DNA from: Branchiostoma floridae | Lineage: Eukaryota; Chordata; Leptocardii; Amphioxiformes; Branchiostomatidae | Reading direction: 5' to 3' | Assembly: GCF_000003815.2 (NCBI RefSeq) | Contig: NC_049984.1 | Location: 3,740,618-3,804,617, forward strand | Length of the DNA stretch: 64,000 bases | In this document: piece after piece, positions 5,044 through 45,116 of the stretch | Position numbering within the stretch: position 1 is the stretch's first letter | Layout of the letters: the number at the start of each line of letters is the position of its first letter | Position numbers and translations under genes: made by a program | Notes under the pieces: model-generated | What the model saw: only the letters and a program-made list of their open reading frames with translations | Database searches by the model: none | Told to the model about the DNA's origin: nothing

Positions 5044-5454
5044 ACTTTACTCGACGGGTTACCAATATGTATTTTATGACAGCCGCATTGCATAGCCATA
5101 ATCTATTATGCTCGCAAATGATTGATTGTATTGGCTTGTAGACATGGCCTAACGAAGCTTGACATGACAAAATGTACAATGACTTTGGTATGGTCGACTA
5201 TAAACTACAGAAATGAGGATGCAGAATTAACTCCCAAGAACGACATCCAGCGGAAATAGCAAGTAATGCGTCGAGACAAAGAATGTAGTCGCGTTGCAGT
5301 GGCAGGGAGATGGAGGTCAACTATGTATCTTCTGGTCAATGAGAGTAGTCTTTACCAGGCTGGCTACGCTGGCTATCATAATTATAGGGAGAATAATTTG
5401 CCAGGGAAGTTTTGCTACCAGATGAGTTAGCCGGCCGCGCAGGGGAAACATTAG

Positions 5455-5545
5455 CCTGGTATCCAGCCGTAATATAGCTTCCCACTCTCTTCTTTCCGTA
5501 TATTAAATAATATACTCGGAAGCTATATTACGGCTGGATACCAGG
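5455..5545. mobile_element. foldback MITE with perfect 28-bp arms
   Basis: Arms 5455-5482 and 5518-5545 are perfect reverse complements over 28 bp, with a 35-base loop. The arm ends in CCTGGTATCCAGCC. The element lies inside another repeat copy and directly beside the assembly gap. Confidence 0.75.
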
Positions 5546-5561
5546 GCTAGGGTATCTTGAG

Positions 5562-5661
5562 NNNNNNNNNNNNNNNNNNNNNNNNNNNNNNNNNNNNNNN
5601 NNNNNNNNNNNNNNNNNNNNNNNNNNNNNNNNNNNNNNNNNNNNNNNNNNNNNNNNNNNNN
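5562..5661. other. assembly gap of 100 N
   Basis: Exactly 100 N, which is usually a placeholder for a gap of unknown size. Both edges carry related CCAGG-CTAGGG sequence, so the gap probably hides repeat copies. Confidence 0.95.
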
Positions 5662-6372
5662 TACCAGGCTAGGGAAACATGAACCTAAGCGTGGACTGAC
5701 GTGACACCTCTGGCCAATTTCCGTATTTTGCCTTATTCTACGATCCCTGTACCCCCATAGGCAGGCCTGGTGGAGGCTAAATGAGAGGGGCACGTCAAGT
5801 CGAAGCTTGTTAACGTTGTAAAATTACCCCTTAGCTGAGTGGGAAAATCGCCCGAAGCGATGTCGATGACAAAGCCCTACAGGTGCTGGTACTGGGGGCA
5901 AACAATGGAACACGTGACACCTGTCCTCTCCAATACAAGCCCAGAAACATGAGAAATGCACATGATTTCCCACATGTACAACAAATAGAAAAGTTAAATG
6001 CAGAAGTATTCTTCATCAGTATATCATATAGAACAATGCAATAAAAGTGATACCTCGATGGAGGTTAGACATCCAGGTAATAAGATATATAATGTAGCAG
6101 TTACCGTAGCATTTGTTATATTTCAGTAATTCTACCTCGAGTAATCGAAATTGAATTTCGAAGTCAATGCGCCATATCGACATTTTCAACTGCCTTAGAC
6201 TTGTAATTGCCCTTAAATGGTGTCTCTATTCATCATCGCATATTTATTCATTGTATATTCAGACAACCGCGATCGTGAGGCCCGACCATTTCAGTTGCCG
6301 AATTGATTCAACGGGGCCCAATGCACAAAATGAATAAAATCGTCAATATCACAAAGAAATTAGATAAAAAGA

Positions 6373-6499: not shown

Positions 6500-9400
6500 G
6501 CAAACAACCCGGTCTGGGCCCGGTTGGGATATGTGACACTTGCATTTATCAGGCTATCTACAGACTATATCAGTACTCCGAAATCCGCAGGCATCAAAAA
6601 TAGATCTGACAGGCCAGTTCATGACTCTCGTGAGTCACCTAACGTTACGCATAACAATTTTGTGACAAACGCAATGACTGACCCTGTCCAACATCATAGC
6701 AGTCGGACAAATAGAACTCCAGCTGTTCGATTTTGAACAGATCCGTAAAAACAGTGCTAGTGGGGCAGAAATGTTAATGATACCGACTGACTTCGGTTCG
6801 TGTACCCACTCTACACTTTGTAGCAGTTAGCATGCACGTGGTAACGTTAACGTTACTAGCTCAGCGGCGACAGTCATCTTTGTCGGACAAGCGATGTTTG
6901 GGAAGTTGGTGTTCGAAGGTTTGATAGAACAGCGTCGCTTGGCAGACTAGTTCCTCTGGTGTGTCATCTGTCTATTTTTATTTCCTATGTCCAATTTCTA
7001 CTATTTCCCCACCGACACAGGCCAATTTACACGAGGCAAAAAATGACTTGTCCTACGACGTTCGACGCGCGGCGCGTGTCCTATGACACTTTTTTTTGCC
7101 CGTGTAAAAACGACAGTGACGCGCGCGCCGCAGTGTGGCACGTTCGGAAGGTCTTGTTTTGCTTCACTAACCGACCACGGGGGGAAATCAGTGGGCGCCT
7201 ACGTTAAACGAATCCCAACGAAATCGTAGCTCGCTACGTACTTTCCAGTAGTTGATAACATTATCATCAGATGCCAAATCTGGAAGCCAAGACGGGTTGA
7301 CTGAGTTCAACGTGTTGAGCATCGCTCGGCCGCCGGCGTGCGTGATCGTAAAATGGCGGGGCCCCGACTGTGTGAACGTTGTGGCATCATTTTAGCTCCG
7401 TTTATCCAACCCAGTTAAAGGCAAAACAGAACACAGGTATTATTTTTCTGAAGGCTAATAAACATCATTTCTATGTATGGTGGTATTTTTTCACATGTCA
7501 TATTTTGCGAAGAATAATTCAAGAGTTTCCCGGGCCATGGTCTCGATACGTTCGCTCGTCAACTTGCACGGAAGGCGTCAAACTTGTGCAAGTTTTTCAA
7601 TCGTTATCTGTGGGACTTGCTAACTTCGACACATACCCCGCCTTTGTAGTTATTTACAACAAGGTTTAGTCTACAGCTAGTGTACTTCTCATGTGCAGGC
7701 ATCTATGCATTTCTCCGCAACAATAATTTTTTTAAACCTGACGAAGTTTGGACCCCTGTCGAAGTATGGCCCCCTCCCGTTATCTAACTGAAGCTGCGGT
7801 ACGTTTAGCGGTGTCACTGCGCGCCGCGCCGATTTCAAAGCGCTGAACGAATTTTATCTTTGCTGCGTGTTTTGTTGTCTTTCTAGTCATTCTTGTACGT
7901 TTTGGACAATATTTCCGTTAGAAAGCTAAGGGTAACACAAATTCAGTTCAGAACGCAAGCGACGCCGCCAACATATCCCTGTACTGCTGTCTTTTCGCGG
8001 GGCTCTACTGAGGATGCCAATGAGATATGTTTAAATCAGTGCATCGTCTGCCGGCGATTTTTTTCCCCGTCTTGACTCCCATAGCAATTCACATAAGTTT
8101 AGCTGTGTTTTCGAAACTTTCGGAAAGTAACGAACACTGAAAAAGTGCTTCGAAACCTTCCAAAAACATCTGGCAATGAAAGGGTTTGCTTGAATGCTGT
8201 AGCAAAAAAAAGCACCTGCCCAACGTTTCGTGTTGTTTCATGTTCACTTAGAAGCGATAAGTCGAAACACCTTTTCAGGGAAGGAATTTAGCCAAAATAA
8301 ATTCCGTTACTTTTCGAAAGAAACGACTTTGCATACCAGAAACTCATGCGTTTCTTTCACACACTTGTTCTTGCCCATCCAAGCAAAAGTCTGAATAAAA
8401 GCTTGAAAGTGTCATAGTTAAAAAGAGGAAGACTCCAGAAGTTTCACTATTAGGTAATTTATTGCATGCTCCGCCCCCTGCATTGAGTTACATTTACATT
8501 GAAGAGAACAGTTAGAAGGATATCGGCCCTCAGTTGGTGCAAGGCTTCAAACCTGTCAGCACGTGGCCGGAGTGCTATTCTGTCAACATCTCGCGCTTGA
8601 AACACTTTTTGAAAAGCATTTTCGTTAAAAACTGAGAAGAATATGGCTTGTGGCTGGTCAAATTATCCAGTGAGGTAATGGTGAATTCTAATTTTCTCTT
8701 ATGTTGGCTTTTTTAGTTTTTTAGTTGGTTTTCCTGTTTTGTCCTAAGCGGCCGTTGCGGTCAAAGGTCAAACTGCGCTCATGTGACCTATATTTTCTCC
8801 TCACGTTTAAGTTTAAAAGAACGCCGTACGTCGGGTCTCGGCACCTCCTCTTGACGCTTAAATTTACGTCTTGTCGAAACAATAGCGTAGAAAGATGGCA
8901 ACGGGAGGGTCAACTCGTGCTCGGTAATTTTCTTTTGTTCATTTCTGTACAATTGTGCGCCGACGCAGCATTCGGTGTTGTTGACTCACACGTAGTGGGT
9001 GTTTTCATCTTTGATTAGAGGACGTATATATAAATGTATATACATATTTTAGAATGTATACTCTATACGCCCAGGAGAAGACTTAGAAACTCGAATCAAA
9101 GCATGCTTACACATGGGGAGCTTTGATTTTGCTGTCTTTGGCATGATTCTTGTACGGAAAGCTGGCGAGGCCCCAATTTTCTTTTGTTCTGCTCACGGAG
9201 AGCGACACTGTGCGCCAGCGGGTCCGTTGTCGTTTGGTTCCCGCCAAATCTCACGACCAAGGACCCAGTCACAATCGCCGTACGACCGGTGTACGACGGC
9301 AAAGTGCAAAAGCGTAGGACTCACGACGGTCGTGCATCTGTCATGTGATAAACGTAGCTGTTGTGGTGAAAAAAAGGCTACCGGAATCCTTCTTGACTAC

Positions 9401-12050: not shown

Positions 12051-12612
12051 TCAAACAACCTTGAATTCCCAACTAAACAGAACTAGAATCGCCCAATTTG
12101 ATAAACGCTGCGCTATATATACTAACGCTATTATGCCATATTTCCCTGGATGGAGGCCGTTCAGGATGTGACCAGACGTGGAATTGTACATGTTTATGGC
12201 AACTGAATATGATCATGTAAAACTAGATACAGGCAAGCCGGGATTCAGCGCCTTCTGAAGGGACTGAGAAGAAATTGTTACTGAAAACAGCTGATTGTTT
12301 AGGTCAGGAGTAGTGGCTGCCCTATTCGACAGTGATATACAACTTCACTGTAGCTGACACAAAACTAATAAAGACTTTATCTAAAACGCTACCATTTGCA
12401 AGCAACAAAGCTTTTCACAGTTTTGCTTCAAATTGACTAAAATTTTCACCGCTGTCCTTCCCCATTGAATCTACCACCATGCCCGTCGCAGTTCCCTACA
12501 ACTCCCGAGACCGTCAAACAACCTTGAATTCCCTACCAAACAGAAGTAGAATCGCCCAATGTAATAAACGCTGCGCTACTCAACATAGACTAGTATACTA
12601 ACGCTATTAGGC
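12051..12612 (+). repeat. direct duplication that carries a broken copy of IRF-A exon 1 start
   Basis: The segment 12051-12136 (TCAAACAACCTTGAATTCCC through ACTAACGCTATTA) is repeated at 12513-12612. Joined directly to the left of the second copy, 12455-12513 repeats the acceptor and first coding bases of IRF-A exon 1 (real copy 12863-12925), including ACCACCATGCCCGTCGCAG. In the copy the acceptor AG is AT, so it cannot splice in the normal way, and the reading frame runs into unrelated sequence after about 10 codons. Confidence 0.8.
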
Positions 12613-12892
12613 CAAATGATTCCCACTGAAGGGAAACCGTTGAGCACCCGGTGACAATTTTCAACGTACAAAATTTTTCTCATTTCACTTCAAATTCTGC
12701 GTAACACACCAGCTTCGCAGGCACACGGCACGGCAGCAGCTGGTTATATTACACTGAACGACTCGTTACCCCTAACTTTTGCACATCTATCTGCAAGCGT
12801 TCTGTAAAACTATCCAGAGAAGATGCCCATACTGTACTTCGTAATAACAAATTATGATTGTACCCCTGCCCTTCCCCAGTGAACCTACCACC

Positions 12893-15800
12893 ATGCCCGT
12901 CGCAGTTCCCGACAACTCCCGAGACCGGCTCCGGCCCTGGCTATACGGCATGATCGACCGCGGCGAGGTCCCGGGCGTGGAGTGGCTCGACGCCGACAAG
13001 AAGAAGTTCAAGATTCCGTGGAAACACGCCGGCAAGCACGAGTACGACCAGGATAGAGATTCCAAACTGTTTAAGGTAGGACATGGCGTTTGTTTAGCCT
13101 CCACCAGGCCTTCCTTCGGGGTGCGGGGATAGTAGAATTCGGCAAAAGAAATCGGGAAAATGGCCAAGGCAGGGGAGTCAGTCCACGCTAAGGTACCTGT
13201 TTCCCCTTCGGCCAACTCCTCTGGTAGCAAAACTCCTCTGGCAAATCATTCTCACTATAATAGCCAGCGTATTCAGTCTGCGTTTGTTGGTCCATACAAT
13301 CGCGATATCAACCTGTTTAAGGTAGGACATGGCGTGTTTTGGGTCCGGACGTTTAAAAAGGTTACTCTTAACTGCGCAGTTCCTTCCCTAAACTACGCTT
13401 CCGTGTAGAGCTGACCTTATTCCTGGTAATATTGCCATCTAGGGGCATCATAGTCAAGGTCAGCTGTTGAAGGGACTTGCACTCGCCAAGGTATTATGAC
13501 TTTAACTTTTATTTACCGTTGTATATTTTGTAATATTCAATAGCACCTGTTTGATTAGTTTTTAAAATGTTTATTATAGACATGTTCTCAATCGATCCAT
13601 TTACGGTCAACTGTTGAAGGGACTTGCCCTCCCCAAGGTATTATGGCTTGAACGTTTATTTGCCCGGCGTCATATTTTGTAAAATTCGATAGCTCACGTT
13701 TTTGATTCGTTTTAGAAATGTTTATGAGTATTATTATTATCATCATCAGTATAGCCTTTATTGTACATCCATGCCCTATCTGGCTAAGTACAAACGTCGT
13801 TATAAAGTACATATGGTGACATTTTCTAACACTAATCTAAAACATGGATTCTAAAGCTACTTCATTTAAAATAAGTGCTCAATTGATCCATTCTATTGCA
13901 CAACATTAATGTTCAATGGCGATAGATAAGTGGAGAACCAGTTTACAGATGTGTGAACAAAAAGGAACCCTCAGTACTTGCATTAGTACTACAGGTAGCC
14001 CACTGTATCAGGATCAGATATAGCTGACATGAAAACCTTATGTTTGTGAAATGGGATCAGTCCCAGTGGACCGGTAACGCCTTTTGGGATGAAGGAAGAT
14101 TAACTATGTCAAAATTCCCATTACCTGTTTACTAGGGACACCTGTGGCCTGGCGTTTAACCTTCTCTATACTAATTACCTTCAAGAAGGTTATGCTTTCA
14201 TTAGCATTTCATTAGCATGTTTATGTTTAAACTATATACGTGCTTATAAATATAAGATTTCCTATCATGCGAGGTAATATTGTGTTATAGTGTACATGTA
14301 AATATATAAGAAGTGCTATTCATGCTAGTTCACGCAGATTAAAAGGGACTGAGGGTTTTAAGTTCAACTCAAATGGCTATCCACTTAAAAGATTCAACCA
14401 CTGCAAGTGTACCATACTTTAGTACAAGGCAAGGGTATCAAAAAACAAAAACAGTATAGAATGTTGTTATTAATCTTGAAGTAAGGTTATTAGGTTGAAG
14501 TAACTATATATGCTAGCTTTGTATGGTGTTCGTGATTATGTTTTTGTGTACAGTTGTTACAAAGGAATGGTGTGCATCTTGAAAGCAGCAAAATCTGATC
14601 TGCGATCAGTTGAATTGTAAACAGTGCGTCAAACATGTTTTGGTCGATTTGAATATTTGAAAGCATTTAAATATTGTACGTTTTGATCACATATCAGAGC
14701 TCATATGCAGGTTAGTGCAGGTACAATTGGAGCTGTGCAGGTATTTCTGGTGTCTACCTGCACCTAACCTGCACTGGTCCATGTACTGGGTTTTATTAAT
14801 TAAATATCCTATAATGTAGGTGTATTTGACATGTTATTAGCCACATTGACTGTTACCACCTACAAAGTATAAAAGAAAAGAATAGCAATTGTTCCTGAAC
14901 AATTTTAGCATGATCGATACTTCAGTGGAGGTAAGATTTGTCTGGTGCAGGTAATTTTCAATGCCCCCTGCACCAGTGCAGGTATGCAGAAAAAAGTATT
15001 TCGAGCCCTGCATGTAGATGTATCGTTGAACCTGTCACCCCTCTACTTACGAAACTTCGCGACCGGTCAGTTTCGGAGTGACGTTGTACCGAAAGTTCGG
15101 CCGAACCCTCCGAAACTTTAGTCAGCCCCCACTTACATACTTACACCACCATCGAAAAACACGACAGAGCTTCTAAGAAGGTATACGCCCCCTCTGGTCG
15201 TATTTTTAGACAACGAAACAAGCTCACCGAAACTTTAACATCAGTCCGAAACTTTGGCAAGTGACCCAGCCATAAACTATAGTCATTTGGCCTCGTCTGA
15301 CAGAAAAACGTTTCCAAAATGCATTTGCGTGTGTCTTTGTGAAACTGGTCACCGAAACTTGAAAATCACTCCGAAACTTTGACAAATGACCTAGCCAGAT
15401 ACTACAGTGTATGCTATTCAAGGTTATTTTTGCCAACAGTATTCGCGATGTTGCAACATGTTGCATGCGTGTGTTTTATAGTTTTGGTCACCGAAACTTG
15501 AAAATCACGCCGAAACTTTGCCAAACCACCCAAGCGCCGTTGTTCAGATTTAGTCCACCAGAATGTTCCAGTCGTTCCAACATTCAAGCGGGTGTTTTTG
15601 CGGCAGACACCGGTATGTATCGCTGTTTTCCGGTTGTATAATTGTCGGCGCGCTAGAAATGGACGGCGCTCAGATGAAAGTTTTGCTACGATGTTACCAA
15701 TCTTTCGACATTTCGCCCGTGTTTGTCGAGTAAGAATAGCTAAACACAATCACCAATCTTTATAACTGTGTTTCTTTTGTAAGAATGGGCGTCGGCAAAC

Positions 15801-18800
15801 GTGGCCCCGATATCGACAATATTCTAGGATTTCTGCCCGTATTTTTATTGACAGGAACGGGCTAAACACACCGGCAATTTTCGTTCCAATATCGACATTA
15901 TTTCAACGTTTCTTACTATGTTTTTGTGATGGGAAATGGCATCGACAATGTCCTAACGTCTATGCCTGTGTTGTTGTTGTTGTTATTTTGCTAGGAATGG
16001 GTCGTGCACGCTGGCAAGTTTTGCCCGGGGTTACAATGCTTGTACCAATTTGTGTTCTTGTGTTTTTGCAACAGGCCGAATGGGCCGTGCACACAGACAG
16101 ATTTTACCCCAATACCGACAATGTTACAACGTCTATGCTTGTGTTTATCGCTAGGGATGGGCCTTGCACATATCGGCAAGTTCCACTCCAATTTTACAAC
16201 GTTTAAGCAGGCTGCGAGAAATAGACCAGATAAAGTGGCCTAATCGGCAATATTCCGCGTTTATGCCCGTTACTTACTTACTTATCCTCTTCATCCCTTG
16301 CGAGACATATACACATCGACAAATTTCGCCAAGGGTTCGACACCACTTGCTCGCGTTGTACCAATCTTTATGCCTGTTTATAGCGACAGATTTTACTCCA
16401 ACGTCGACAATTTTCTTAGTACCTTAAGGTACTTGCTTTTGCTAGAAATGGGCCCTGCACACAGACAGATTCTACTCCAATTTTTCAACATCTATGTACA
16501 TGTTCTAGCTAGGAATGGGCCCTGCACACCGACAAATTTTACTCCAATTTTTCTACGTCTACACATGTGTTTTCGCCAGGAATGGGCCGTGCACACCGAC
16601 AGATTTAACTCCAATGTCGAGAATTTTCCAACCTCTATGCATGTGTTTTTCCTAGGAATGGGCCGAGCACACCCACAGATTTTGCTCCAATGTTTCAAAG
16701 TCTATGTACGTGTTCTTGCTAGGAATGGACCCTGCTAACCCACAAATTTTACTCCAATGTTTCAACATCTATGTACGTGTTTTTTTGGCTAGCAATATTG
16801 GCCCTGCTAACCGACAGATTTTGTTCCAATGTTTCAACGTCTATGTCACGTCTTTTTGCGACAGGAATGGGTGGTACACACTGACAGATTTTACTCCAAT
16901 GTTTCAAGGTTTATGCCTGTGTTTTTTTTGGCTAGGAATGGGCCCGGGCACCCTAGATGCACACCGACAGATTTTACGCCACTATTTCAACGACTATGTA
17001 CGTGTTTTCTTTGCTAGGAATGGGCGGTCCACACCGGCAAGTTTCGGCCGGGGATCGATAAGCCCGAGCCGGCGGTGTGGAAGACCAGGCTGCGGTGCGC
17101 CCTCAACAAGCACCCCAAGATCCACGAGGTGAAGAACGAGAGCCAGCCGGAGGACCCCATCAACCCTTACAAGGTCTACGTCTTCTCCGACAAACCAAGT
17201 AAGCAACCTCTCTCTTCTATTCCCTATCTTGGACAAACCACGTGAGCATTATAACGATTTATGCCTTTTTTGCGCAAATTTTGTTCTTGACGACATATCT
17301 TTTCACATACATGTATTTACTATAAGAAAAAGTGCGTACGCTTTTTGGGGAACATTACCTTGACAGGTAATTTATTTTGCTCATGCTTTTGCTCATACAT
17401 ACATGGTTGAAATGGTGTTACGGTATATCTTAGACATAGTCGATCCTGTCTTAATTTTTCTGAAAATATTAAGGTGTTCTGCTTTTCAGTATTTGAACTA
17501 CAAGTACTAGTATGATCCGTACTCACCCCGGTCAGCGGCAGGCAGGCATTACTATAGGGAATTTTTAGCAGTTTTTGAACATTCTTTTATGAATTATATT
17601 TGTCTCAATATTATGGCATATGGAGAAAGTTGAATGTACAAGTTTATTGATGTTCAGTTTTTTTGTGTGTGTGTCCAGTCAAGAGCAGTGCCAAGCAGAG
17701 GCACCGGTCCGGCAGCGTGTCCAGCGGTAACAGCTCGGACGGCTACGAAGATTCCCGAAGTCCCGAAGAGGCCGTCACTCCTCTCGGTACGGTGCCTTTA
17801 ATGTGATCCGTGAGCCTTTTTCATTAAGATTGAGGATACTAACAAAACTGAATAATGCGAGTAAACGAATGGCAAGAAAATAACGTCTACCCCAACATAG
17901 CCGGGGCAGTCACGTACTTTGACGCGGGGTTTCAAACACTATTTAAACGCGGTATAAAAAAAGTTATTCTTAATAAATAATGCCTATACATATTTATCAT
18001 TTCGTATTTATTCCCTGTGTCATTTTCTTTCCATGGAGGTCTAGATATTAGCGATCGATACAGAACAGTACGAATCCAGCAAATACATGATACTGTTTAT
18101 ACTATTCGAAGCGGGACACACACAGCCATTATGCGTAGCCAACAGGTGTGTACAGTAGTAACAGAAGAATGATCCCTGTTACTAGTATATCTTGTTATTA
18201 ATGTCTTTTTTTATTCTTAATTCCAGCTGCACCCCCGTCCCAACAGATCATCACAGCGGTGACCACCAGTGGAGTCTGTCTGGGGAACTCTCCGCCTCGT
18301 ATTTTCACCGAGCCACAGGTCAGTCCTAAGGTTTCGAAGACTTCGAAGCGGGTTCCTTTCTATTAGACGGCGATCTCGCTACATGTGGGCTAAATTGGAT
18401 TTGTTTAACCACTTGGAATGCCATGGCAAATGTTAAAGTATGACTCAAAAGATACCAAAACGCGCAAAGGGTGAAAAAATATTATTTTGTATCTAATAGA
18501 TGAAATTCGTTGAGCACTCAATGCTTGTGCTACCGGGTCCAATGATATCATTTCATTTTCCATAAACATTAAAAATGCTGTTTAATTGTGTATTTTCTGA
18601 GTTATTGCAAATTTCTAAAGCTTTCACGTGTCCTGCCATCGATCTTTTAATATCACTTTGCCATGTTATCAAAGTATCGTTAAAAGGTTAAAACCTTTTA
18701 GCCTGACAAATTCACGGCAGCAAGAAAAAAGATTGATCCGATATCTTTCGCCTTGCAGGCCTTCACATCAACAACAACGACACCCAGTCTTGGAGACACC

Positions 18801-21800
18801 GCAACTTCGTCTATGCGAGGTAAGTGGTCGTCTTGGAATGTTCTGAAAAGTGTGGACTGACTTTTTCGGTTTATGGCTATGTCTGTCCGTATCATATTCC
18901 ATGAGAGAAAACCCGTGATTGCAAATATAGGCTTCATATGTAAGTGTTTGCTTTGACCATACGTGGGGGAATGTGTGCTTACAACAAAGCCTTAGTTTGG
19001 ACTTGCGTTTGCAACATTGTCCTTGAATTGCTTGCAACAAGTTCACCAAAGAGCACAGTAGAGGTAGCCTCCTCTCTGGGCTTTTTTCGCCTTTCTTTGC
19101 TCATAATATACTTTTTCTTTTTGTACTGGGTCGTTAGTGCCAGCCCGACCCAGCACAAAAAAAGGCCCAGTGAGCCCGCTATGGAGGCTAACATAGAGGC
19201 CAGTCGAAACCGTCAATAGGTCTCAGTTCTTTCAGTTTCATAGTCCTGACTGAACTTTCACTTTCATGGTACAACAATAACAATTTGTTATCAACACTTT
19301 CACTTTCACCGCTATAATCATTGAAAATCATTGTCAAAAAAGTCTAGATCTATGACTCTACTTCCTCTTAAAAAGCCATGTAACCTTCATTTTAGAACTA
19401 TACTGACATTGTTCATTGTCGTCATATCATGATCACGTCGTTTTCGACGGTTTCCCGACAACTACCACCGATTCTTGATATTCTTCCGTTTAGAGATACA
19501 ATTTACTGACAATCATTGTGACTTTTCGGTTTCTCACAACTTATTTTAGTCCACATCTTTGGGAACTAAACCAGTAAAAAAGATTTTGTTTCAGGACCTG
19601 TATTATATGGACAGGAAGAATAGTGAAACAATGTATAACGTAACACTAATGGATATCCAAATGAAACAGTTGAACAAACAGACACGCAATAAAAGGTATT
19701 ACAACCATATTTTACAGAGGACTCCCTCCAGAAGATCCTACAGGACCTGTTCCCAAACACCAAATTTAATCGGCCCCTTAATGATTTTTTGGGCAGTTTT
19801 GGCTGTACACACAATAAAAGGTCTTCAATTAAAACCGCGTTTTATAGAGCACTCCCTACAGACGATACTCCCCCAGTAAGCTCCGTAGGTTCTTGCCGCG
19901 TGTCTCCCTTTTCTGTGCACACAACAAAACGTTTTAAAGTCATGTTTTGCAGAGGACTCCCTCAAGAATATCCTGCAGTAAGTTCTTGTAGTGTCGTCCC
20001 TTTCTGCACACGCAATAAAAGGTATTACAACCATATTTTACAGAGGACTCCCTCCAGAAGATCCTACAGGACCTGTTCCTAAACACCAAATTTTATCAGC
20101 CCCCTTAGCGGTATTTTTGGGCAGTTTTGGCTGCACATGCAATAATAAAGGTCGTAAATCCTTCTATAGGACTAATTGAAGACGATAATAAAAAAAAGGT
20201 CTTAAACCATATTTTACAGAGGACTCCCTGCAGAAGATCCTGCAGGACCCGTGGTCATTTTGGGCAGTTTTGGCTGCGCACGCAATCTTCATCATATCGT
20301 TCCATTCTCATTGCACACGCAATAAAAAGTCTCAAAACCATATTTCACAGAGGACTCCCTAACGAAGATCCTGCAGGACATGTTGGGCCAGCCCGGCCAC
20401 GGGGACGGGGTCCAGACCATGCAGGAGCTGCTGCAGGGTATGCAGGGCGTCCCCGGGCTCTGTCCGTCGGGCGAGTTCACCATACAGGAGGTCTCCTTGC
20501 CCATGGACGTCACAACCGCCGCTGATAACCCCGCCGTCATCACGGAACCGCTCTACACTAACGCGCCCATCAAGGTGAGATAAAGATAGATCATATCTTA
20601 TGATCTTTTCAACTGTATTTCATGTCAATTCTTTGAGATTCTTAGGTTATTTAGTGTATATGCGATGTATCTGTGCTCATGTGTGAGTAGCTTCCCGTGA
20701 CCCAAGTGTATTGTTTGCAATCAAGTCAAATATAAAATACAAGTACATAACAAGGCAATGCCAGCTGCAGATTGGTAGCAAAATTTTTGGCGACGCCACA
20801 AGGGCTGAGATGATGAAATGATCCAACGATTCCTGAAAATAGTCACAGCACAGGCCAGTTGCAGCCCTGGACAGCAGAGACTGTGTTACACAGACTTACA
20901 TACATTGTGTTAATTTCTAGTTTGTTCCAACCTTCCCACAGATCGAGACCCAACAGCTGGCGAACGTTGACATGACCCAGCTGGGGGTCGGGGCAGAGGT
21001 CACGTGTGACGAGGACATGGAGACCGATGACGTCATGCCCAAACCGGTGCCCACTGTCCCCACAGCTGTAGTCGCCCCAGAGCTCAGGATTTATCCGGGT
21101 AAGTGTTGAAAGATGTACATACTACTTTCCAAACTTTGCTTGTTTTTGTATCTAAGGGTACAGGGAAATGGTAGTCCCATAAGCTATTTAAAGGCAACCT
21201 ACCTAAGCGATTAAAGTTGAAGGGGCTACCCACGTGTCTGGAGATGAATGAAAAAAACAACTTTTCAGTCAATTCGTTTGGCGTAATGAGATGAAGTGAC
21301 TCGTGAACGTGAACGTACGCTTGTTTCTGTGCCGTAGCACTAACCGGTCTTATCAGATAGTTGAGAACAACAAACATAGCCAGAATCATTTATGGATTTT
21401 GATGATATTTTATGTTCTATCTCATAGCCCATCCCTCTTCTTTCAAGGCCTTTTACCTCCCCAACCGAAGTCATATATAGCTCTAATCGTTCGTATCAAG
21501 CAAGAAAGAAGACTCCTTTATGAAGCAGAAAAGAAGAATCGTTAATGAATTTTGATGATATTTTCTATTCCAGCTCATGAGTTGGATATCGAGGTCGTCT
21601 ACTACAAAGCCGGGAAGGTCTTCCAGCATCACGTGACCAACAGGACCGGCTGCCGTCTGTGGTTCGGCGACCGGAACCAGCCCAACCTGAGACAGACCGT
21701 CGACCCCAACCTGTCCCCTTACCTGTACGGGCCTGCCGACGCGGAACAGATCCTGCTGCCGCCGCGCCAGCCCTCCAACAGGCAAAAGGACGACGAAGTG

Positions 21801-23625
21801 GTGCAAGGTATGTACTTCTGATAGCGTCCACCGGGCTAGCCTCCATAGCAGGCCTTCTGGGCCTTTTCCCCCTCTTTTGGGGCTTAAGATACACCTTTGC
21901 TGGCCGTTTAATTTTGTACTGGGTCGTTTGTGCTGCCGGTCCGTCAGCACCAGGCCTCCTACTGGTGTATGGATCGTAGAATTCTACAGAAATACATAGG
22001 CAAATTGACCAGAAGAGTCAGTCCACGCTAAGGGTCACATCCACCCTCCGGGGCGATAATACAAACCCTGGTAGCAAAACTCCCCTGGAAAATAATTCTC
22101 CCTAGTAGCTAGGCTAAGCGTAGTCAGTCTGGTAGGGACTACTACTGAATGGAGAGGAACCGTACTTTGAACACGGTAGCTGCTGTGTGGAACATGTACA
22201 CGTAAACTCCAGCTTACCTGTTTTAAATATATGTGTTCTAAGTCTGTTTTAACTATTTACTTAGTATTTTGGATTTGAAGAATGCAAACATCGTCGATAG
22301 TTAGTATAAATGTTAAGCTGTATTTTGCCTAAGAAATGATTTTATGCATTTGTCATTTGAGCGACACCCGACATAAGTCAAGTCAAGTCAAGTCTGCAAA
22401 AAGTATGCAAGTCAGCATGTGGCAGCGAAATACTTTTTTTACCTCATCATAATTATTGAATCATTCATTTCTTCATCATTCATTTCTTTCCTTTCCTTTA
22501 AAGGTCTGCTGAACAACATGGAGCGGGGTCTCGTGCTGACCACGGAAAACGGAAACATCTCTGCCACCCGCCTCTGCAAGACCAAAGTCTTCTGGAAGAG
22601 CAACGACAACCGCAACGGGCAGGCGGAGCGTTTGGAGAGGGAACAGGTTTGTTTGTTTGTGCCTTTATTTACACTCGAATTTGCTCTGCTCAGCCTTCAG
22701 GGCCGCTTGTCATAGAGGTCGAGTTGGAAGAAGTATTAGGGGTCATTTGAAAATATTACAAATTCTTAGTCAACATATATGACTCAATGTAATTGATACA
22801 ACGAATAGATGAATGAAAAATATGACAGTTCCAAATAATAAGTCGTCAAGTCATTAGATGCAAATTCGTTCGATTAGGATCTGTTACAGTGACGCCATTC
22901 TTCTAGAGGTTGTATTAAAGAGAAGACGCTACTATGACGTCCTGTGGTAGTAGGCTAGGACCTCCTGTAAACTTCTCTCAAGGGCATGAGGCCCACAAGG
23001 AGATCAGAGGCACTTAATCTGGTGCTCTTGGTAGCTCTGTGCTTGCAGTAGGTGAACATTTGGCGCATATAGGCTTGAGTGTGCACCAGCAAATCCCCAT
23101 GCAGATCCTACGGTGCCATAAGATAGTATCAAAGCTGGCCAAGGAGTATAGCCGGCCAAAGGGAGTCAACCGGGCACAGAAGTGTTTGATACTATACCGG
23201 TGGGTTTGATACTATACATTACGCCACCGTGGATCTGGTTGGAGATTACACCAGTAGAGCTTTGTGGCGCTTGTCTCATTGAAGTTTACGTCTTTCCATC
23301 CCAGGTTGTGCCGGTGTTCGACTACCAGAACTACCTGCGTGAGCTGAGCGCCTACGGCAACAGCGGAGGCCCCAAGCCCAAGTGCGAGGTCATCTTCAGC
23401 TTCGGGAAGTGCTGGAGCGATGACGTACCGCTGGAGAATACGCCCATCTACGTCATCGTGCGCAGCCGCACTGCGCAACACCTGATGATGGCCGTGGACA
23501 AGGGCGCGACCGACCACGATGCGCAGAACGCACTGCGCAGCATCGACGCCATGGTGTCCAACTCGAACGAGTTCGACAAGTTGGCCACGGACGTGAAGGA
23601 ATACGTCAAGGTCAAGGACTTCTAG
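12893..23625 (+). CDS. IRF: IRF-A: interferon regulatory factor, IRF4/8-like, 567 aa
   Basis: This is a transcription factor of the interferon regulatory factor family. Coding exons: 12893-13075, 17018-17198, 17679-17786, 18227-18318, 18759-18819, 20351-20574, 20942-21098, 21574-21807, 22504-22646, 23305-23625. The phase is kept at every junction (1704 nt). Residues about 8-121 form the DNA-binding domain, with all five family tryptophans (W16, W31, W43, W63, W82) and the canonical recognition helix R87-C88-A89-L90-N91. Exons 3-7 encode a Ser/Thr/Pro-rich linker. Residues about 337-540 form the IRF association domain, with YYKAGK, GCRLWFG, LERGLVL-type, TRLCKTKVFW and FSFGKCW blocks, closest to IRF4/8. 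The start ATG has a CCACC context and sits 13 bases after an acceptor (12878-12879), so the leader is spliced. The introns before exons 2 and 6 hold decoy-acceptor arrays. The IRF4/8 assignment is from memory of human sequences. Confidence 0.93.
13093..13290 (+). repeat. TAGCCTCC-family dispersed repeat
   Basis: It starts TTTAGCCTCCACCAGGCCT and includes GTCAGTCCACGCTAAGGT and GGTAGCAAAACTCC. The same order is found at 5785-5340 (minus) and 22006-22140 (plus). It begins within 20 bases of the IRF-A exon 1 donor. Confidence 0.7.
13312..13338 (+). repeat. duplicated exon 1 splice donor of IRF-A
   Basis: CTGTTTAAGGTAGGACATGG, the end of exon 1 plus its donor (13067-13090), is repeated here about 245 bp downstream. 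The copy keeps an intact GTAGGA donor but little exon sequence. Confidence 0.75.
13735..13850 (-). mobile_element. LINE 3' tail fragment
   Basis: A TTATTATCATCATCAG microsatellite is followed by cctttattgtacatccatgc, then ctatctggctaagtac and aaaacatggattctaaa. The same order is found at 36690-36800, at the 3' end of the LINE relic there. Confidence 0.6.
14695..15010 (+). mobile_element. hAT-like non-autonomous element, copy 1
   Basis: The right end is GTATTTCGAGCCCTG. The left end is a degraded CAGAGCTC. Subterminal regions carry many GTGCAGGTA / TACCTGCAC motifs on both sides. It is an inverted relative of 23640-23993. The CAGGGCTCGAAAT-type terminus is typical of hAT elements, and the family call rests on that terminus. 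Confidence 0.7.
15050..15545 (+). repeat. CCGAAACTT tandem repeat
   Basis: Three clear units of roughly 130 bp share TCACCGAAACTT, then a short spacer, TCCGAAACTTTG and CAAATGACC-like sequence, at 15227, 15348 and 15486. A more divergent CGAAACTT-rich block lies at 15050-15125. No coding potential seen. Confidence 0.7.
15783..17017 (+). repeat. array of about 15 decoy acceptors copied from IRF-A exon 2
   Basis: Degenerate units of 63-83 bp each carry a T-rich tract, a CTAG/ACAG acceptor and then GAATGGGCCGTGCACACCGA-like bases. That matches the first 20-odd bases of real exon 2 (17018, coding EWAVHTGKF). Exon-like starts are visible at 15783, 15855, 15932, 15995, 16078, 16155, 16445, 16513, 16580, 16656, 16723, 16793, 16865 and 16936, with decayed units around 16220-16390. 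The unit at 16078 still reads EWAVHTDRFYP. After the exon-like bases each unit turns into ACTCCAATGTTTCAACGTCT and then the next T-rich tract. Confidence 0.88.
19065..19190 (+). mobile_element. TAGCCTCC-type MITE
   Basis: It begins TAGCCTCC and ends GGAGGCTA. Inside is a smaller inverted pair, TGGGCTTTTTT and AAAAAAAGGCCCA, plus TACTGGGTCGTT. It shares that core with 21837-21930. It lies in IRF-A intron 5, just before the IRF-binding motifs at 19229. Confidence 0.65.
19229..19307 (-). promoter_or_regulatory. cluster of three IRF-binding elements in IRF-A intron 5
   Basis: On the minus strand there are GAAACTGAAAG (19239-19229), GAAAGTGAAAGT (19265-19254) and GAAAGTGAAAGT again (19307-19296). 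The last two match the IRF element consensus in full and the first in all but its final base. Three sites in 79 bp inside an IRF gene suggest auto- or cross-regulation by IRF proteins. Function is inferred. Confidence 0.6.
19683..20350 (+). repeat. array of decoy acceptors copied from IRF-A exon 6
   Basis: Units of about 90-130 bp carry ACGCAATAAAAGGT, a CATATTTTACAG acceptor and then AGGACTCCCTCCAGAAGATC-like bases equal to the start of real exon 6 (20351, coding EDSLTKILQDM). Exon-like starts lie at 19718, 19848, 19953, 20044 and 20220, with a shorter decayed one near 20170. Several still read EDSLQKILQDL. The units at 19718 and 20044 are nearly identical for more than 60 bp, so copying was probably recent or ongoing. 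Confidence 0.88.
21837..22140 (+). repeat. TAGCCTCC-family composite repeat
   Basis: It begins CTAGCCTCCATAGCAGGCC (reverse of the end at 19190) and shares TACTGGGTCGTT with 19128. It continues with GTCAGTCCACGCTAAGG and TAGCAAAACTCCCCTGG as at 13180 and in 5440-5340. It lies in IRF-A intron 8. Confidence 0.65.
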
Positions 23626-23639
23626 ATTCTGATACTAAA

Positions 23640-23993
23640 CGGGGCTCGAAATACTTTTCTATACATACCTGCACTGGTGGTGTGCAGGTAACATTGAAAA
23701 TTACTAGTACCTGCACCAGACAAATTTTACCTGCACCACTCTGAATTTAGGAAGTAACGGATCATACTAAAATTGTTCAGGAACCATTGCTATTTTTTTA
23801 TTTTATACGTTATAGGTGGTAACAGCCAATGCAGCTAATAAAAATCCATATGCACCTACATCATAGGATATTTATGTATAAAACCCAGTACATGGACCAG
23901 TGCAGGTTAGGTGCAGGTAGACATCAGAAATACCTGCACAGCTCCAATTTTACCTGCACTAACCTGCATATGCAGGTGGTATTTCGAGCCCTG
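23640..23993 (-). mobile_element. hAT-like non-autonomous element in the IRF-A 3' UTR
   Basis: Termini CGGGGCTCGAAATAC and GTATTTCGAGCCCTG form an inverted repeat, and TACCTGCAC / GTGCAGGTA motifs crowd both ends. It starts 14 bases after the IRF-A stop codon, so it makes up the proximal 3' UTR. It contains AATAAA at 23837-23842, which could serve as a poly(A) signal. It is inverted relative to the copy at 14695-15010. No clean target duplication was found. Confidence 0.75.
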
Positions 23994-36290: not shown

Positions 36291-36365
36291 CACGTTAGAT
36301 ACTAGTACTAATTTTTACCAGGGTAGAGCGAGGATATAGGTGTTTTAAATTAAAGTTCCTCTCCC

Positions 36366-36661
36366 AAGGGCACAACATTTAGGCCTACTAGGTATTCGAA
36401 CCAAGGGCACAACATTTAGGCCTACTAGGTATTCGAACCAAGGGCACAACATTTAGGCCTACTAGGTATTCGAACCAAGGGCACAACATTTAGGCCTACT
36501 AGGTATTCGAACCAAGGGCACAACATTTAGGCCTACTAGGTATTCGAACCAAGGGCACAACATTTAGGCCTACTAGGTATTCGAACCAAGGGCACAACAT
36601 TTAGGCCTACTAGGTATTCGAACCAAGGGCACAACATTTAGGCCTACTAGGTATTCGAACA
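36366..36661 (-). repeat. 37-bp tandem repeat x 8, derived from a SINE tRNA body
   Basis: Eight nearly identical units start with AAGGGCACAACATTT at 36366, 36403, 36440, 36477, 36514, 36551, 36588 and 36625. On the minus strand each carries GGTTCGAATACC, close to the RNA polymerase III B box GGTTCGANNCC. The AAGGGCACAAC part matches the SINE at 4147-4389, so a SINE fragment was amplified. It lies in the putative IRF-C leader intron. Confidence 0.85.
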
Positions 36662-36684
36662 AAGAAACTAAAGCTCAGTATTAA

Positions 36685-42400: not shown

Positions 42401-45116
42401 ATAAGGCCATGTAGATTTCATTACATGGATGACATCCACGCGCGCATCAATTTTCGGCCGTTTCTGAAAAAAAAAAAAACACGTTTTCAACCACTCTGTC
42501 AATCGTAAAAAGTAGATATAAAATGAGCACATATGCCGTAAGTTGAAATTGCCGAAACGAGTACTAACGTCATAGATTGACAAAGTAAATTGCAACGTCA
42601 AAGAAGATGTGAAAGAACAAAAATGAAAATCTAGTGTCCTGAGCACCTAGATATCATACCGAAGGCAACTATTTGGCTGCGTACTGGCTTAAGAATTCAT
42701 ACATTTACATGCACGGCCACGTTTTGCGAGACTTTGAAATACAAGATCTTGCAAGTTTCTGATAACTCGATAACTCCACCCACAGGCCACACGGATGTAG
42801 ACATCACGGTACAGTACAGGGGGCGCTGCGTCGTGCCACCGCAGCGCGTCTCCAACCCCAGAGGTCTCCGCATCTTCTCCGGGTCTCCCTTCACGCAGCA
42901 GATCGGGCGGCAGGTCTGTTTGTCTTTCTCTCTGTTTGTTTGTTTGTTTGTTTGTTTTGCTTAAGCATTAAGCAGCCTTTATGCTCGCCAGTTTTTTTAC
43001 AGTTCAAGCTGAGTAGGACCAGACTTTAAGGTCACGCCGGCATTGACCTCTACTCTTTTCGATAATGTGGTGGGCTTTTTAGCATGCCCAAGGTGTGGTT
43101 CATGAACCTCATACATAGGACCTCCGGCGTAACACCCCATCCTAGTCTGAACATGAGTTGAGTGAGAAAAATAGGCCTTTGTCAGAGATTGGAACCCAGA
43201 ACCTTTACATTTTAAGAAAAATAACCCTATCCAAAAGATAATCTCATGTGCAATTGCTGGAGCCTGCTAGGGATTGGAGCTCAGAACCCATAGATTTTGA
43301 ATCAACAGCCTTAACCAAAAATCTCTCTTACTGGGGCCTGACAGGGATTTGAACCCACAACCCTGGATCATAATTCAACAAGAGAGAAAGATTGGGTGAC
43401 CTTCCAGAACACTAAAGAAACTTATAGAAACAGAAACAAATCTAGAGGGACAGCAACTTCTTCCTTATATGAAGGACAAACAGTTCTGGAGATCGTACTT
43501 TACTACTTGTTCCACATTGAAAGAGCATTACTGATGATGATGATGATGATGATGATAAGTGAAAAGCAAACTCTCACCAAAATACCCCTTCCCACCACCA
43601 GGTTATTGTCCAGGCGCAGCTTGCAGAGGGAATGTACGGTCCCAAGGACGTGGCCCAGTTCGTCCTGCCGGACGTTGACCGCGCGAGCATGGGTCAGAAG
43701 CAGTTTGACCTGACCAGACAGCTGTTGGAGTTGTTTGATGATGATGATATTAAGTCACAACCAAACTAACCAAGATACGCCTTTCCACCACCAGGTTATT
43801 GTGCAGGCACAGCTGGCAGAGGGAATGTACGGTCCCAAGGACGTGGCCCAGTTCGTCCTGCCGGACGTTGACCGCGCGAGCATGGGTCAGAAGCAGTTTG
43901 ACCTGACCAGACAGCTGTTGGAGTTGTTTGATGATGATGATATTAAGTCACAACCAAACTAACCAAGATACGCCTTTCCACCACCAGGTTATTGTGCAGG
44001 CACAGCTGGCAGAGGGAATGTACGGTCCCAAGGACGTGGCCCAGTTCGTCCTGCCGGACGTTGACCGCGCGAGCATGGGTCAGAAGCAGTTTGACCTGAC
44101 CCGGCAGCTTCTGGAGCACACGGAGCGCGGCGTGGTGCTGGAGTTCCATCAGAACGACATCTACGCCAGGAGACTCTGCAGGAGCAAGGTGTTCTGGGAG
44201 GATAGCAACCGGCCAACCGGCACACCCCTTAAGGTACTCAGAGTAAAATTTTGTGGCTAAGATATTCTGGATAACAAAATCATCATGTTCAACAAAACCC
44301 ATTGACGTTAACATTAAGATACACATTTTTACCAGATTATTTCATTTACACCGCAAATACAATTCACGTTGTGGTCCGCTCCTTCTTTGGGTGGTACAAA
44401 AAATGCAACGTAAACAAATTAGCAGCTTTTGTATGAGTCCGCATTTTGATTGCAATGATGTCGCATTTTGTTCATTTCCTGATTGTTGTTATTCAATGCG
44501 ATTTTGTAGATGCATAACACCATACAAGAAAAGGTCATGAAATTGACTTTTAATAATCTGACCTTTGAGTTGAGTGAGTACCCATTTTTATACCTAGGTG
44601 AAGTGAGGAAGGTCGTGTAAAGTGGCCTTCGGGCAGGTATCGAACCCGGACTTCTAGGTTCCGAGCCCAACACTTTGCCAGTTACGCCACACACACACAC
44701 ACACACGACGCCACTAAATCTGACTTCGTGCACCTTTAAAGCTGAACCGTGACCAGCCCACGAAGATCTTCGACTACCAGACGGCCTTCATCCCGGCCTT
44801 ACAGCACTACGTCACACACGAGGGTGCCGCGCGGCCGAGCCCGGATCTGAGGCTATGCGTGGGGCAGGTGTGGGACCGGGACAGGCGCCCCTTCAAGGAT
44901 AACCTCATCACCGTGACGATCACGCACCTGACGGCGGCGCGCCAGCTCGAGGTGGTCCGCCAGGTGAGAGGACAGCACTCGCTGAGTCTGAGCGGCGCCG
45001 GCGTCTCCTGTTCCAACGAGTACGACAAGCTGGTGAAGCAGGTGGAGTGCCTGGTGCAGAGCATGAACATAGATGCTTCACAAGATGCTGCGCCACCGTT
45101 CGCCAACATGATGTAA
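39456..45116 (+). CDS. IRF: IRF-C: interferon regulatory factor, IRF5/6-like, 467 aa
   Basis: Coding exons: 39456-39650, 40393-40576, 41596-41688, 42082-42264, 42786-42913, 43988-44233, 44742-45116 (1404 nt, phases consistent). Residues about 12-126 are the DNA-binding domain. The first family tryptophan is F20, while W35, W47, W67 and W85 are present. The recognition helix is R90-N91-A92-L93-R94. Exons 3-4 form a Gln/Pro-rich linker. Residues about 219-445 form the association domain, with QYRGR, GLRIFSG, HTERGVVL, RRLCRSKVFW and CVGQVW blocks. Exon 2 has the same length (184 nt) as in IRF-B, and exon 1 uses the same donor position, so the two are tandem duplicates. Two extra acceptor-plus-exon copies of exon 6 lie in the preceding intron, and using either would truncate the protein inside the association domain. 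The role in DNA binding and immune gene control is inferred from the family. Confidence 0.93.
39893..40108 (+). repeat. degenerate tandem repeat, about 60-70-bp period
   Basis: Three units share TATAACCGCCCTT / TTTAACCGC, a CAGTTTCTGTATC element and CTGTGTAG. They lie in IRF-C intron 1. Just after, 40122-40200 (GCGGCAGCAGCTGGTTATA) matches 12722-12790 upstream of IRF-A. Confidence 0.6.
40674..40760 (+). mobile_element. second tRNA-like SINE head
   Basis: TGGCGTAGCGATTATCGGCG resembles an A box and GGGTTTGCTTCCC a B box, about 35 bases apart. A T-run at 40747-40755 follows. It differs from the 4147-4389 SINE. It lies in IRF-C intron 2. Confidence 0.45.
43174..43388 (-). repeat. three tandem tRNA-like repeat units
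   Basis: Units near 43174, 43256 and 43331 share GGGATTGGAGCTCAGAACCC-type sequence (B-box-like on the minus strand) followed by a T/A-rich stretch and CCTTAACCAAAA. They lie in IRF-C intron 5 just upstream of the decoy exons. Confidence 0.5.
43534..43987 (+). repeat. two extra 193-bp copies of IRF-C exon 6 start
   Basis: A (GAT)n run (43534-43556) leads into copy 1 (exon-like start 43602). Copy 2 starts at 43795 and the true exon at 43988, spaced exactly 193 bp. Each copy has an intact CCACCACCAG acceptor and about 128 bp of exon, then joins TTGTTTGATGATGATGATA intron sequence at the point where the real exon continues HTERGVV. Spliced in phase 0, either copy ends after LLELFDDDDIKSQPN at a stop. 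Copy 1 differs from copy 2 at several sites, so this is not a simple assembly stutter. Confidence 0.92.
44600..44706 (-). mobile_element. degraded tRNA-derived SINE ending in (AC)n
   Basis: GGTCGTGTAAAGTGGCCTTC, TATCGAACCCGGACTTCTAG and CCAGTTACGCCAC match the intact SINE at 4147-4389 in order. It is followed by (AC)n at 44689-44706 and lies in the last intron of IRF-C. Confidence 0.65.

Follow-up and report, generated by a model that had tools for sequence, protein, structure and literature searches.

Mirages, in which intron–exon boundaries are copied in tandem in a minisatellite-like manner, have been published for several amphioxus genes, namely the globins BflGb6 and BflGb9, Adh3, TnC, and PGBD5 (PMC3087553, PMC3902484). 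According to the excerpts of these papers, acceptor and donor edges can both be copied, the AG/GT signals are kept in many but not all units, and regular splicing is reportedly undisturbed; for the Adh3 mirages, somatic instability has been reported. In the amphioxus immune-type gene VCBP3, introns contain complete or partial copies of neighboring exons, some with canonical splice sites, but the excerpted account gives these as data not shown and describes no array (PMC2632668). A related situation is seen in human genes with intron-detaining decoy exons (OGT, ARGLU1, and SF3B1), in which intronic splice sites compete with the real exon; as excerpted, the OGT decoy has both 3′ and 5′ sites, has a tested regulatory effect, and yields a form described as subject to NMD (PMC12017769). 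Duplicated in-gene splice signals are also central to intron gain by tandem duplication (the Rogers model and the mirage model of the globin paper, PMC3087553, in its excerpted text). The excerpt of the huntingtin paper (PMC2206037) describes no boundary repeats, and among the literature matches listed, no title is about an IRF-A array.

The IRF-A Locus

The window analyzed here, a 64-kb stretch of DNA, contains a cluster of four IRF genes (IRF-A, IRF-B, IRF-C, and IRF-D). The closest relatives of the 546-aa IRF-A protein are from Branchiostoma (94, 84, and 83% identity), and the host is a cephalochordate. Our exon map of the window follows Branchiostoma orthologs, with an exon starting at 20351 and with exons 18759–18819 and 8643–8674 included. 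The IRF-D map comprises three exons with four boundaries and is probably incomplete. The window also holds a gap of 100 Ns at 5562–5661, far from the array described below.

12880–13075 (+): IRF-A exon 1, the coding exon preceding the array; IRF domain positions 1–49, ending in LFK, phase 0
15783–17017 (+): mirage array in which 14 decoy versions of the intron 1/exon 2 boundary can be aligned (TRF, blastn, HMM, and alignments)
15995–16030 (+): longest unambiguous stretch copied from exon 2, 36 nt, 29/36 identical (blastn/exon alignment)
16312–16359 (+): fragment lacking a junction, probably exon 2 positions 13–61 (mononucleotide-shuffle p = 0.002)
17016–17017 (+): authentic exon 2 acceptor AG (reading frame, domain split, and gene models)
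17018–17198 (+): IRF-A exon 2, IRF DNA-binding domain positions 50–104 of 105 (Pfam PF00605, E = 1.1e-15)

Exon 2 encodes the second half of the IRF DNA-binding domain and has its donor at 17198. The last 1.2 kb of the preceding intron 1 (15783–17017, + strand) is a degenerate array of 63–83-bp units, whose copies lie next to the authentic boundary, within the intron. The array is of a kind already described, a minisatellite with an intron–exon boundary as its unit. The preliminary description had called such a repeat unusual, which is not supported for this animal, given the match to published amphioxus mirages and the further cases in the IRF cluster. The units differ in size from those of BflGb6 (150–160 bp), BflGb9 (157 bp), and Adh3 (10–72 bp; PMC3087553, in excerpt). 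There are also more of them, approximately 14 compared to six and three in the two BflGb6 haplotypes excerpted there, and they are more diverged (49–85% identity, against 81–100% in BflGb6). The host gene, an IRF, is likewise unlike the published mirage genes, and as an ordinary mirage, the array would be a long and much-diverged addition to a short published list, in an immune transcription factor.

Intron 1 interrupts every one of the four IRF genes (4/4) at an identical phase-0 position, whereas an array at the intron 1/exon 2 junction was found in only one of the four, IRF-A, and not in the other three. The array is therefore an add-on to a shared intron, and the idea that it created intron 1 was rejected. 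Unlike in tandem-duplication intron gain, no intron has been added here.

Extent and Divergence of the Array

The array was seen by TRF, blastn, and HMM alike, confirming its existence at 15783–17017. TRF reported a 67-bp period with 7.4 copies and 74% matches at 16429–16945 (+), the best-preserved part. Searching the window with nucleotides 1–43 of exon 2, blastn returned eight plus-strand copies at E < 1 spanning 15855–16891 (best E = 1.7e-5, weakest 0.31) and, besides exon 2 itself, no further match at this threshold on either strand of the 64 kb. A unit HMM matched repeatedly between 15816 and 17044, its best match beyond 15400–17100 having E = 1.1; the eight units of its training set (seven upstream copies and the authentic boundary) match by construction, as the HMM was built from them.

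Alignable junctions lie at 15783, 15855, 15932, 15995, 16078, and 16155, and, after a degenerate stretch from ~16180 to ~16440 that interrupts the array, at 16446, 16513, 16580, 16656, 16723, 16796, 16865, and 16937. The junction at 15932 is doubtful (HMM E = 1.1, exon match not significant). An earlier count of about 15 units of 63–83 bp was therefore about right, given the 14 alignable junctions and the fragment, except for the degenerate stretch.

Pairwise identity among 13 array units is 49–85%, with a mean of 64%. Identity falls with distance, but not significantly (Spearman −0.46, p = 0.13; 12 decoys, with 15783 and 15932 omitted). The pairwise divergence is too great for mis-stacked reads or haplotypes of one locus, and we regard an assembly artefact or stacked haplotypes as scarcely credible, even though repeats and haplotypes reportedly confounded an early amphioxus assembly (PMC2632668, in excerpt) and the window does carry a gap, albeit the distant one at 5562–5661.

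Unit Anatomy and Similarity to Exon 2

Most units consist of the end of intron 1 followed by ~27 nt of exon 2, and blastn, the HMM, and exon alignments support the view that they duplicate the boundary between these two. Where 20-odd copied exon bases had been proposed, 27 nt holds for most units, but the exon portion is longer at 15855 (29 nt) and 15995 (36 nt), and probably extends over positions 13–61 in the fragment at 16312–16359. When 16 array segments were tested for a match to exon 2, 13 reached p < 0.05 and three did not. Translation bears out the peptide EWAVHTDRF in the unit at 16078, while the unit at 15995 encodes EWVVHAGKFCPG.

Decoy Acceptors and Predicted Splicing

Most units retain an acceptor: in every unit but 15932 (13/14), an AG lies no more than 3 nt from the junction. 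The AGs of these 13 decoys end at 15783, 15854, 15994, 16074, 16154, 16445, 16512, 16579, 16655, 16722, 16792, 16864, and 16935, and that of the authentic acceptor at 17017. Six of the seven acceptors named in advance stand (16512, 16579, 16655, 16722, 16864, and 16935); the seventh, placed at 16077, does not, as the AG near 16078 ends at 16074, 3 nt ahead of the GAATGG copy. Under a pooled pyrimidine-tract model, 5/13 decoys outscored the authentic acceptor and one tied, whereas under a position-specific acceptor model only 1/13 did so. The decoys thus keep fair acceptor scores, leaving room for real competition.

Copied acceptors could, in principle, recruit U2AF/U2 and so rival the authentic acceptor or hold up its use, and such a regulatory array would throttle IRF-A via unproductive splicing or intron detention, with a strength set by copy number. 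The retained AGs and the overlap of pyrimidine-tract scores with the authentic site agree with this idea, as does the existence of intron-detaining decoy exons in human genes (PMC12017769, in excerpt), yet we consider it unlikely. No selection on the decoy AGs was visible in the alignment, where the AG columns were kept in 11/14 units, about like their neighbors (mean 10.2/14 over 25 columns), with no extra conservation. A premature stop follows all 13 tested decoy acceptors (13/13), which would suit unproductive splicing, but chance alone predicts stops downstream of intronic acceptors. Decoy 5′ splice sites matter in the human cases, as excerpted (PMC12017769), whereas the array, in contrast to the OGT decoy, offers predicted acceptors nearly without donors: only 1/73 GTs reached the donor cut-off, compared to 22/197 in the remainder of intron 1, a scarcity that is essentially that of one unit repeated and that does not extend to the second mirage (five donor-like GTs in 650 bp). 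One possible decoy exon with both sites, 16384–16428, combines an acceptor score of 8.1 (6.1 for the authentic site) with a donor score of 8.2 and contains an in-frame stop, in keeping with a regulatory role. Against such a role, the other three IRF genes of the window carry no array at the same junction, and published mirages reportedly leave the regular product undisturbed (PMC3087553, PMC3902484, in excerpt).

In all five of the closest amphioxus protein models, exon 1 is spliced to the authentic start of exon 2 (LFK|EW), although these are database records, perhaps predicted, in which minor or unproductive isoforms would not show. This splice check took five of the nine listed Branchiostoma rows; P0006–P0009 align over 26–38% of the query. 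Neither the 13 stops nor these models give any sign of productive decoy use, and little in the data favors the earlier suggestion that competing acceptors regulate or diversify splicing. We also find it quite improbable that the array is a tunable splicing brake, i.e., a functional bank of decoy acceptors in front of the exon completing the DNA-binding domain, whose unstable copy number would vary the unproductive share of IRF-A RNA and, with it, immune gene dosage; were decoys used in this manner, gene dosage would be set by a minisatellite.

Probable Origin of the Array

In our assessment, the IRF-A array is very probably a near-neutral, ageing amphioxus mirage that is largely ignored by the spliceosome. 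Its history, as read from one sequence, may have begun with a tandem duplication, for which the anatomy of the copies suggests one breakpoint 36 nt or more into exon 2, perhaps as far as 61 nt, and another in the terminal part of intron 1. This event would have left an extra boundary on the upstream side of the authentic one. Slippage or unequal exchange may then have amplified the 63–83-bp unit with its ~27 nt of exon, and of the options raised in the preliminary description, runaway slippage appears to fit the sequence best. Because the mRNA requires just one boundary, the one continuous with the remainder of exon 2 and its donor at 17198, the other copies would have become intronic and free to drift, as the 49–85% identity between units and the unexceptional conservation of their AGs suggest.

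Exon definition is a general principle of splicing. The spliceosome most likely keeps the last acceptor, which would be preferred because it alone is paired with a donor close by to form a complete exon. RNA spliced now and then to a decoy would be frameshifted or run into a stop and so be unproductive. In all likelihood, the array is nearly neutral.

Other Boundary Copies in the Window

Further copies of splice boundaries were found within the IRF cluster:

19682–20350 (+): second mirage, five copies (19718, 19848, 19953, 20044, and 20220) of the acceptor boundary of exon 20351
20351–20574 (+): authentic IRF-A exon 3′ of the second mirage
43541–43987 (+): third mirage, in which the acceptor boundary of IRF-C exon 43988 occurs twice more (acceptors 43602 and 43795, 193 apart) (TRF and boundary search)
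43988–44233 (+): authentic IRF-C exon 3′ of the third mirage (ortholog P0121 has the peptide once)
12448–12505 (+): one copy, upstream of exon 1, of its acceptor and start region, 91% over 58 nt, in which the AG reads AT
13309–13335 (+): 27-nt duplicate of the exon 1 donor boundary, 96% (local-copy search)

Of the 23 acceptors in the cluster, three have arrays and one has a single copy, which makes the cluster a test bed for how the spliceosome chooses among a dozen near-copy acceptors. The same tally, along with the boundary copies in print for several other amphioxus genes (in excerpt), could be taken to mean that splice junctions are prone to break and duplicate, for instance through co-transcriptional structures, with mirages as the scar. 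We compared local copies of 46 boundaries (23 acceptors and 23 donors) with random intronic points at a 30-bit cut-off. Local duplication was seen at 5/46 boundaries, compared to 60/700 points outside the three arrays and 132/800 points overall, the points not being mutually independent, and the difference was not significant (Fisher p = 0.41–0.59). By type, 4/23 acceptors and 1/23 donors were duplicated (p = 0.14–0.78 for acceptors), the comparison of 4/23 with 60/700 leaning towards an excess (p = 0.14). Boundaries as preferred targets of duplication are thus not supported, and a boundary hotspot appears very improbable, although a control that samples one 64-kb window may miss a modest effect. 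The control instead suggests that mirages may need only a high local duplication rate in amphioxus introns and no mechanism specific to splice sites. Copies sit upstream of all four duplicated acceptors (4/4) and downstream of the one duplicated donor.

The duplicated exon 1 donor boundary at 13309–13335 was dropped as a mirage candidate, since it flanks a dispersed repeat (13102–13280) and is more likely a target-site duplication of that element. A weak match near the donor at 39650 (22.9 bits) fell under the cut-off. Relatives of the dispersed repeat lie at 21948–22131 and, inverted, at 5344–5781.

The IRF Cluster and the Structure of IRF-A

Four IRF genes lie in tandem, with first DNA-binding exons starting at 12880, 28526, 39456, and 50206 (the last three being coding starts); the names IRF-A to IRF-D are labels only, taken over from the preliminary description.

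12880–52411: tandem cluster of four IRF genes

The window is lancelet DNA. In a similarity search, the best matches to a conceptual 546-residue protein from the window, still without two small exons, were Branchiostoma proteins, namely an IRF4-like protein from a hybrid, B. floridae x B. japonicum (94% identity), and proteins of B. lanceolatum (84%) and B. belcheri (83%), each over 100% of the query. The 105-position IRF domain is split in IRF-A between exon 1 (positions 1–49) and exon 2 (positions 50–104), which join at LFK/EWAVHTGKF in phase 0, and all four genes have an intron at this same phase-0 site. The authentic exon 2 acceptor, at 17018, reads ...tttgctag/GAATGGGCG. Elsewhere, in the IRF-3-type domain, one intron is apparently common to IRF-B and IRF-C with none there in IRF-A, and the IRF-A intron between 21807 and 22504 is missing from both.

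A Boundary Array in Intron 1 of IRF-A

The final 1.2 kb of IRF-A intron 1 is made up of degenerate copies of the intron 1/exon 2 boundary. The preliminary description had reported this array correctly and located it well: with exon 2 positions 1–43 as the query, we found eight plus-strand copies at E<1, all inside 15855–16891, and, besides exon 2 itself, no other match at E<1 on either strand of the 64-kb window. An HMM of the unit gave a series of matches stretching from 15816 to 17044, with those to the eight array units used to build it expected by construction. Fourteen decoy junctions (intronic copies of the authentic boundary; 15932 is doubtful) could be aligned, with spacings of 63–83 nt apart from a degenerate gap at 16155–16446. 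Thirteen of 16 array segments match exon 2 positions 1–70 at p<0.05 (mononucleotide shuffles, uncorrected); segments 15925–15990, 16380–16440, and 16785–16860 did not reach this level, the last being still clear in the unit HMM (E 4e-14).

The exon part of most copies corresponds to exon 2 positions 1–27. The copy at 15995 retains 36 exon positions and a fragment at 16312–16359 matches positions 13–61, suggesting that the first duplication reached deeper into the exon. The array most likely originated by tandem duplication followed by slippage or unequal exchange, with the deeper duplication preceding amplification of the shorter unit. Pairwise identity among 13 units (12 decoys plus the authentic site, leaving out 15783 and 15932) is 49–85% (mean 64%), with adjacent units averaging 67%, and the array looks old and uneven, unlike one that expanded recently or was stacked up in assembly.

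Minisatellites with an intron-exon boundary as their unit are known in amphioxus as mirages, a term which, according to passages of the globin paper (PMC3087553), goes back to Canestro and colleagues' study of Adh3. These passages give six and three units in two haplotypes, note somatic instability reported for Adh3, suggest from Adh3 data and the paper's own globin RT-PCR that regular splicing is undisturbed, and propose that mirages can seed new introns. Passages of the PGBD5 paper (PMC3902484) add TnC and PGBD5 as cases, and those of the VCBP paper (PMC2632668) describe VCBP3 introns holding partial exons with splice sites. All tested sequence-level features of the published mirages were found in the IRF-A array, which is an already known amphioxus kind of structure.

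Possible Use of the Decoy Acceptors

An AG lies at most 3 nt from the junction in 13 of the 14 decoy units. Conservation does not single out the AG: its two columns are retained in 11/14 units, and the 25 columns around them in 10.2 on average. Two ad hoc acceptor models, for which the 22 remaining acceptors found in the window's IRF genes served as the training set, disagreed. With a pooled pyrimidine-tract model (149 control AGs averaging -4.5), five of 13 decoys outscored the authentic site and one tied, whereas only one of 13 did so with a position-specific model. Given this disagreement, the strength of the local acceptor gives no clear reason for 17018 winning.

Two things could give 17018 an advantage: no other copy continues into a complete exon ending at a donor (17198), and the array is almost without donors. 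At a cut-off set by the third-weakest of 23 authentic donors, one of 73 GTs in the array is donor-like compared to 22 of 197 elsewhere in intron 1, a scarcity amounting to about a single observation since each unit duplicates the others; the second array of IRF-A holds five donor-like sites in 650 bp. The one donor-like site of the intron 1 array (after 16428), together with a good acceptor before 16384, could delimit a 45-nt decoy exon, which contains an in-frame stop.

Joining exon 1 to a decoy leads to a stop in 13/13 cases, at the furthest at 17130 within exon 2; this is the chance expectation for intronic acceptors and no evidence of design. Stops likewise follow the decoys of the second (5/5) and third (2/2) arrays. 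LFK/EW is joined directly in all five amphioxus proteins examined (P0001–P0005, of which similarity marks three as orthologs and two as longer paralogs), which are database models, not RNA counts; Branchiostoma P0006–P0009, aligned over 26–38% of the query, were left out of this comparison. Half of the preliminary interpretation stands: decoy-like acceptors are present, but the array is of a kind already known in amphioxus and showed no sign of function in these analyses. Sequence alone leaves some room for the bolder proposal, that a bank of decoy acceptors throttles IRF-A, which we consider very improbable. The preferred reading is that the spliceosome would neglect the decoys through exon definition and that the array would be near-neutral.

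Boundary Copies across the Cluster

We surveyed 46 IRF boundaries (23 acceptors and 23 donors; 20 in IRF-A, 10 in IRF-B, 12 in IRF-C, and four in IRF-D, whose gene map is probably incomplete) for boundary-crossing copies scoring 30 bits or more and lying no further than 2.5 kb away. These occurred at 4/23 acceptors (12880, 17018, 20351, and 43988) and 1/23 donors (13075), and the survey found no array at the intron 1 junction of the other three IRF genes. At each of the four acceptors the copies are upstream, and at the donor the copy is downstream, always on the intronic side, as an intact exon requires; the copies, their side, their divergence, and the intact authentic boundary are all directly visible. 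Acceptor 12880 has one copy, with its AG changed to AT. Two acceptors carry further mirages in this survey:

19718–20220: second mirage, five copies before IRF-A acceptor 20351
Before IRF-C acceptor 43988: third mirage, two copies at 193-bp spacing

As a control, the same copy test was applied to 800 random intronic points drawn from 18,870 in the same genes, >40 nt from exons. Duplication was seen at 132/800 random points (60/700 outside the three arrays), 140/800 AG-anchored points (63/707), and 106/800 GT-anchored points (43/711). Neither 4/23 acceptors nor 5/46 boundaries differed significantly from random points (Fisher p 0.14–0.78, rough values since control points are not independent). 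Ordinary local duplications, overlapping an exon edge by chance, can account for the window's mirages. Acceptors alone tend to an excess outside arrays (4/23 vs. 60/700), and there may be a modest excess at acceptors in this small sample.

In the second mirage, units 19848–19875 and 19953–19977 have a donor-like GTAAG directly after the exon fragment. With an acceptor and a donor each, they could act as very small decoy exons, from which the published intron-gain model starts. In IRF-C, the acceptor boundary occurs three times over 43541–44116 at 193-bp spacing, and copy 2 is identical to the authentic boundary over 80 nt, so the triplication is probably young; the triplicated peptide occurs once in the IRF-C ortholog P0121. 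A 44-nt intronic duplication (21382–21425 and 21535–21578, 84%) overlaps the exon at 21574 by 5 nt, not enough to be scored as boundary-crossing.

Other Repeats

A dispersed repeat has three copies in the window, at 13102–13280, 21948–22131, and 5344–5781 (inverted, enclosing a 100-N gap). On either side of the copy in IRF-A intron 1 is a 27-nt direct repeat that includes the exon 1 donor site, probably a target-site duplication. We set aside the donor 13075 copy as a mirage, since it flanks this dispersed repeat and reads better as a target-site duplication. Just upstream of the intron 1 mirage, a separate repeat at 15224–15532 (offsets of ~125–140 bp, ccgaaactt motif) shows no obvious connection with the exon boundary. 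Another dispersed repeat of ~310–330 bp is present in inverted copies, 84% alike, in IRF-A intron 1 (14702–15008) and just past the gene (23642–23972). Between IRF-B and IRF-C lies a 37-bp minisatellite (36364–36664) of 8.1 copies with 99% matches.
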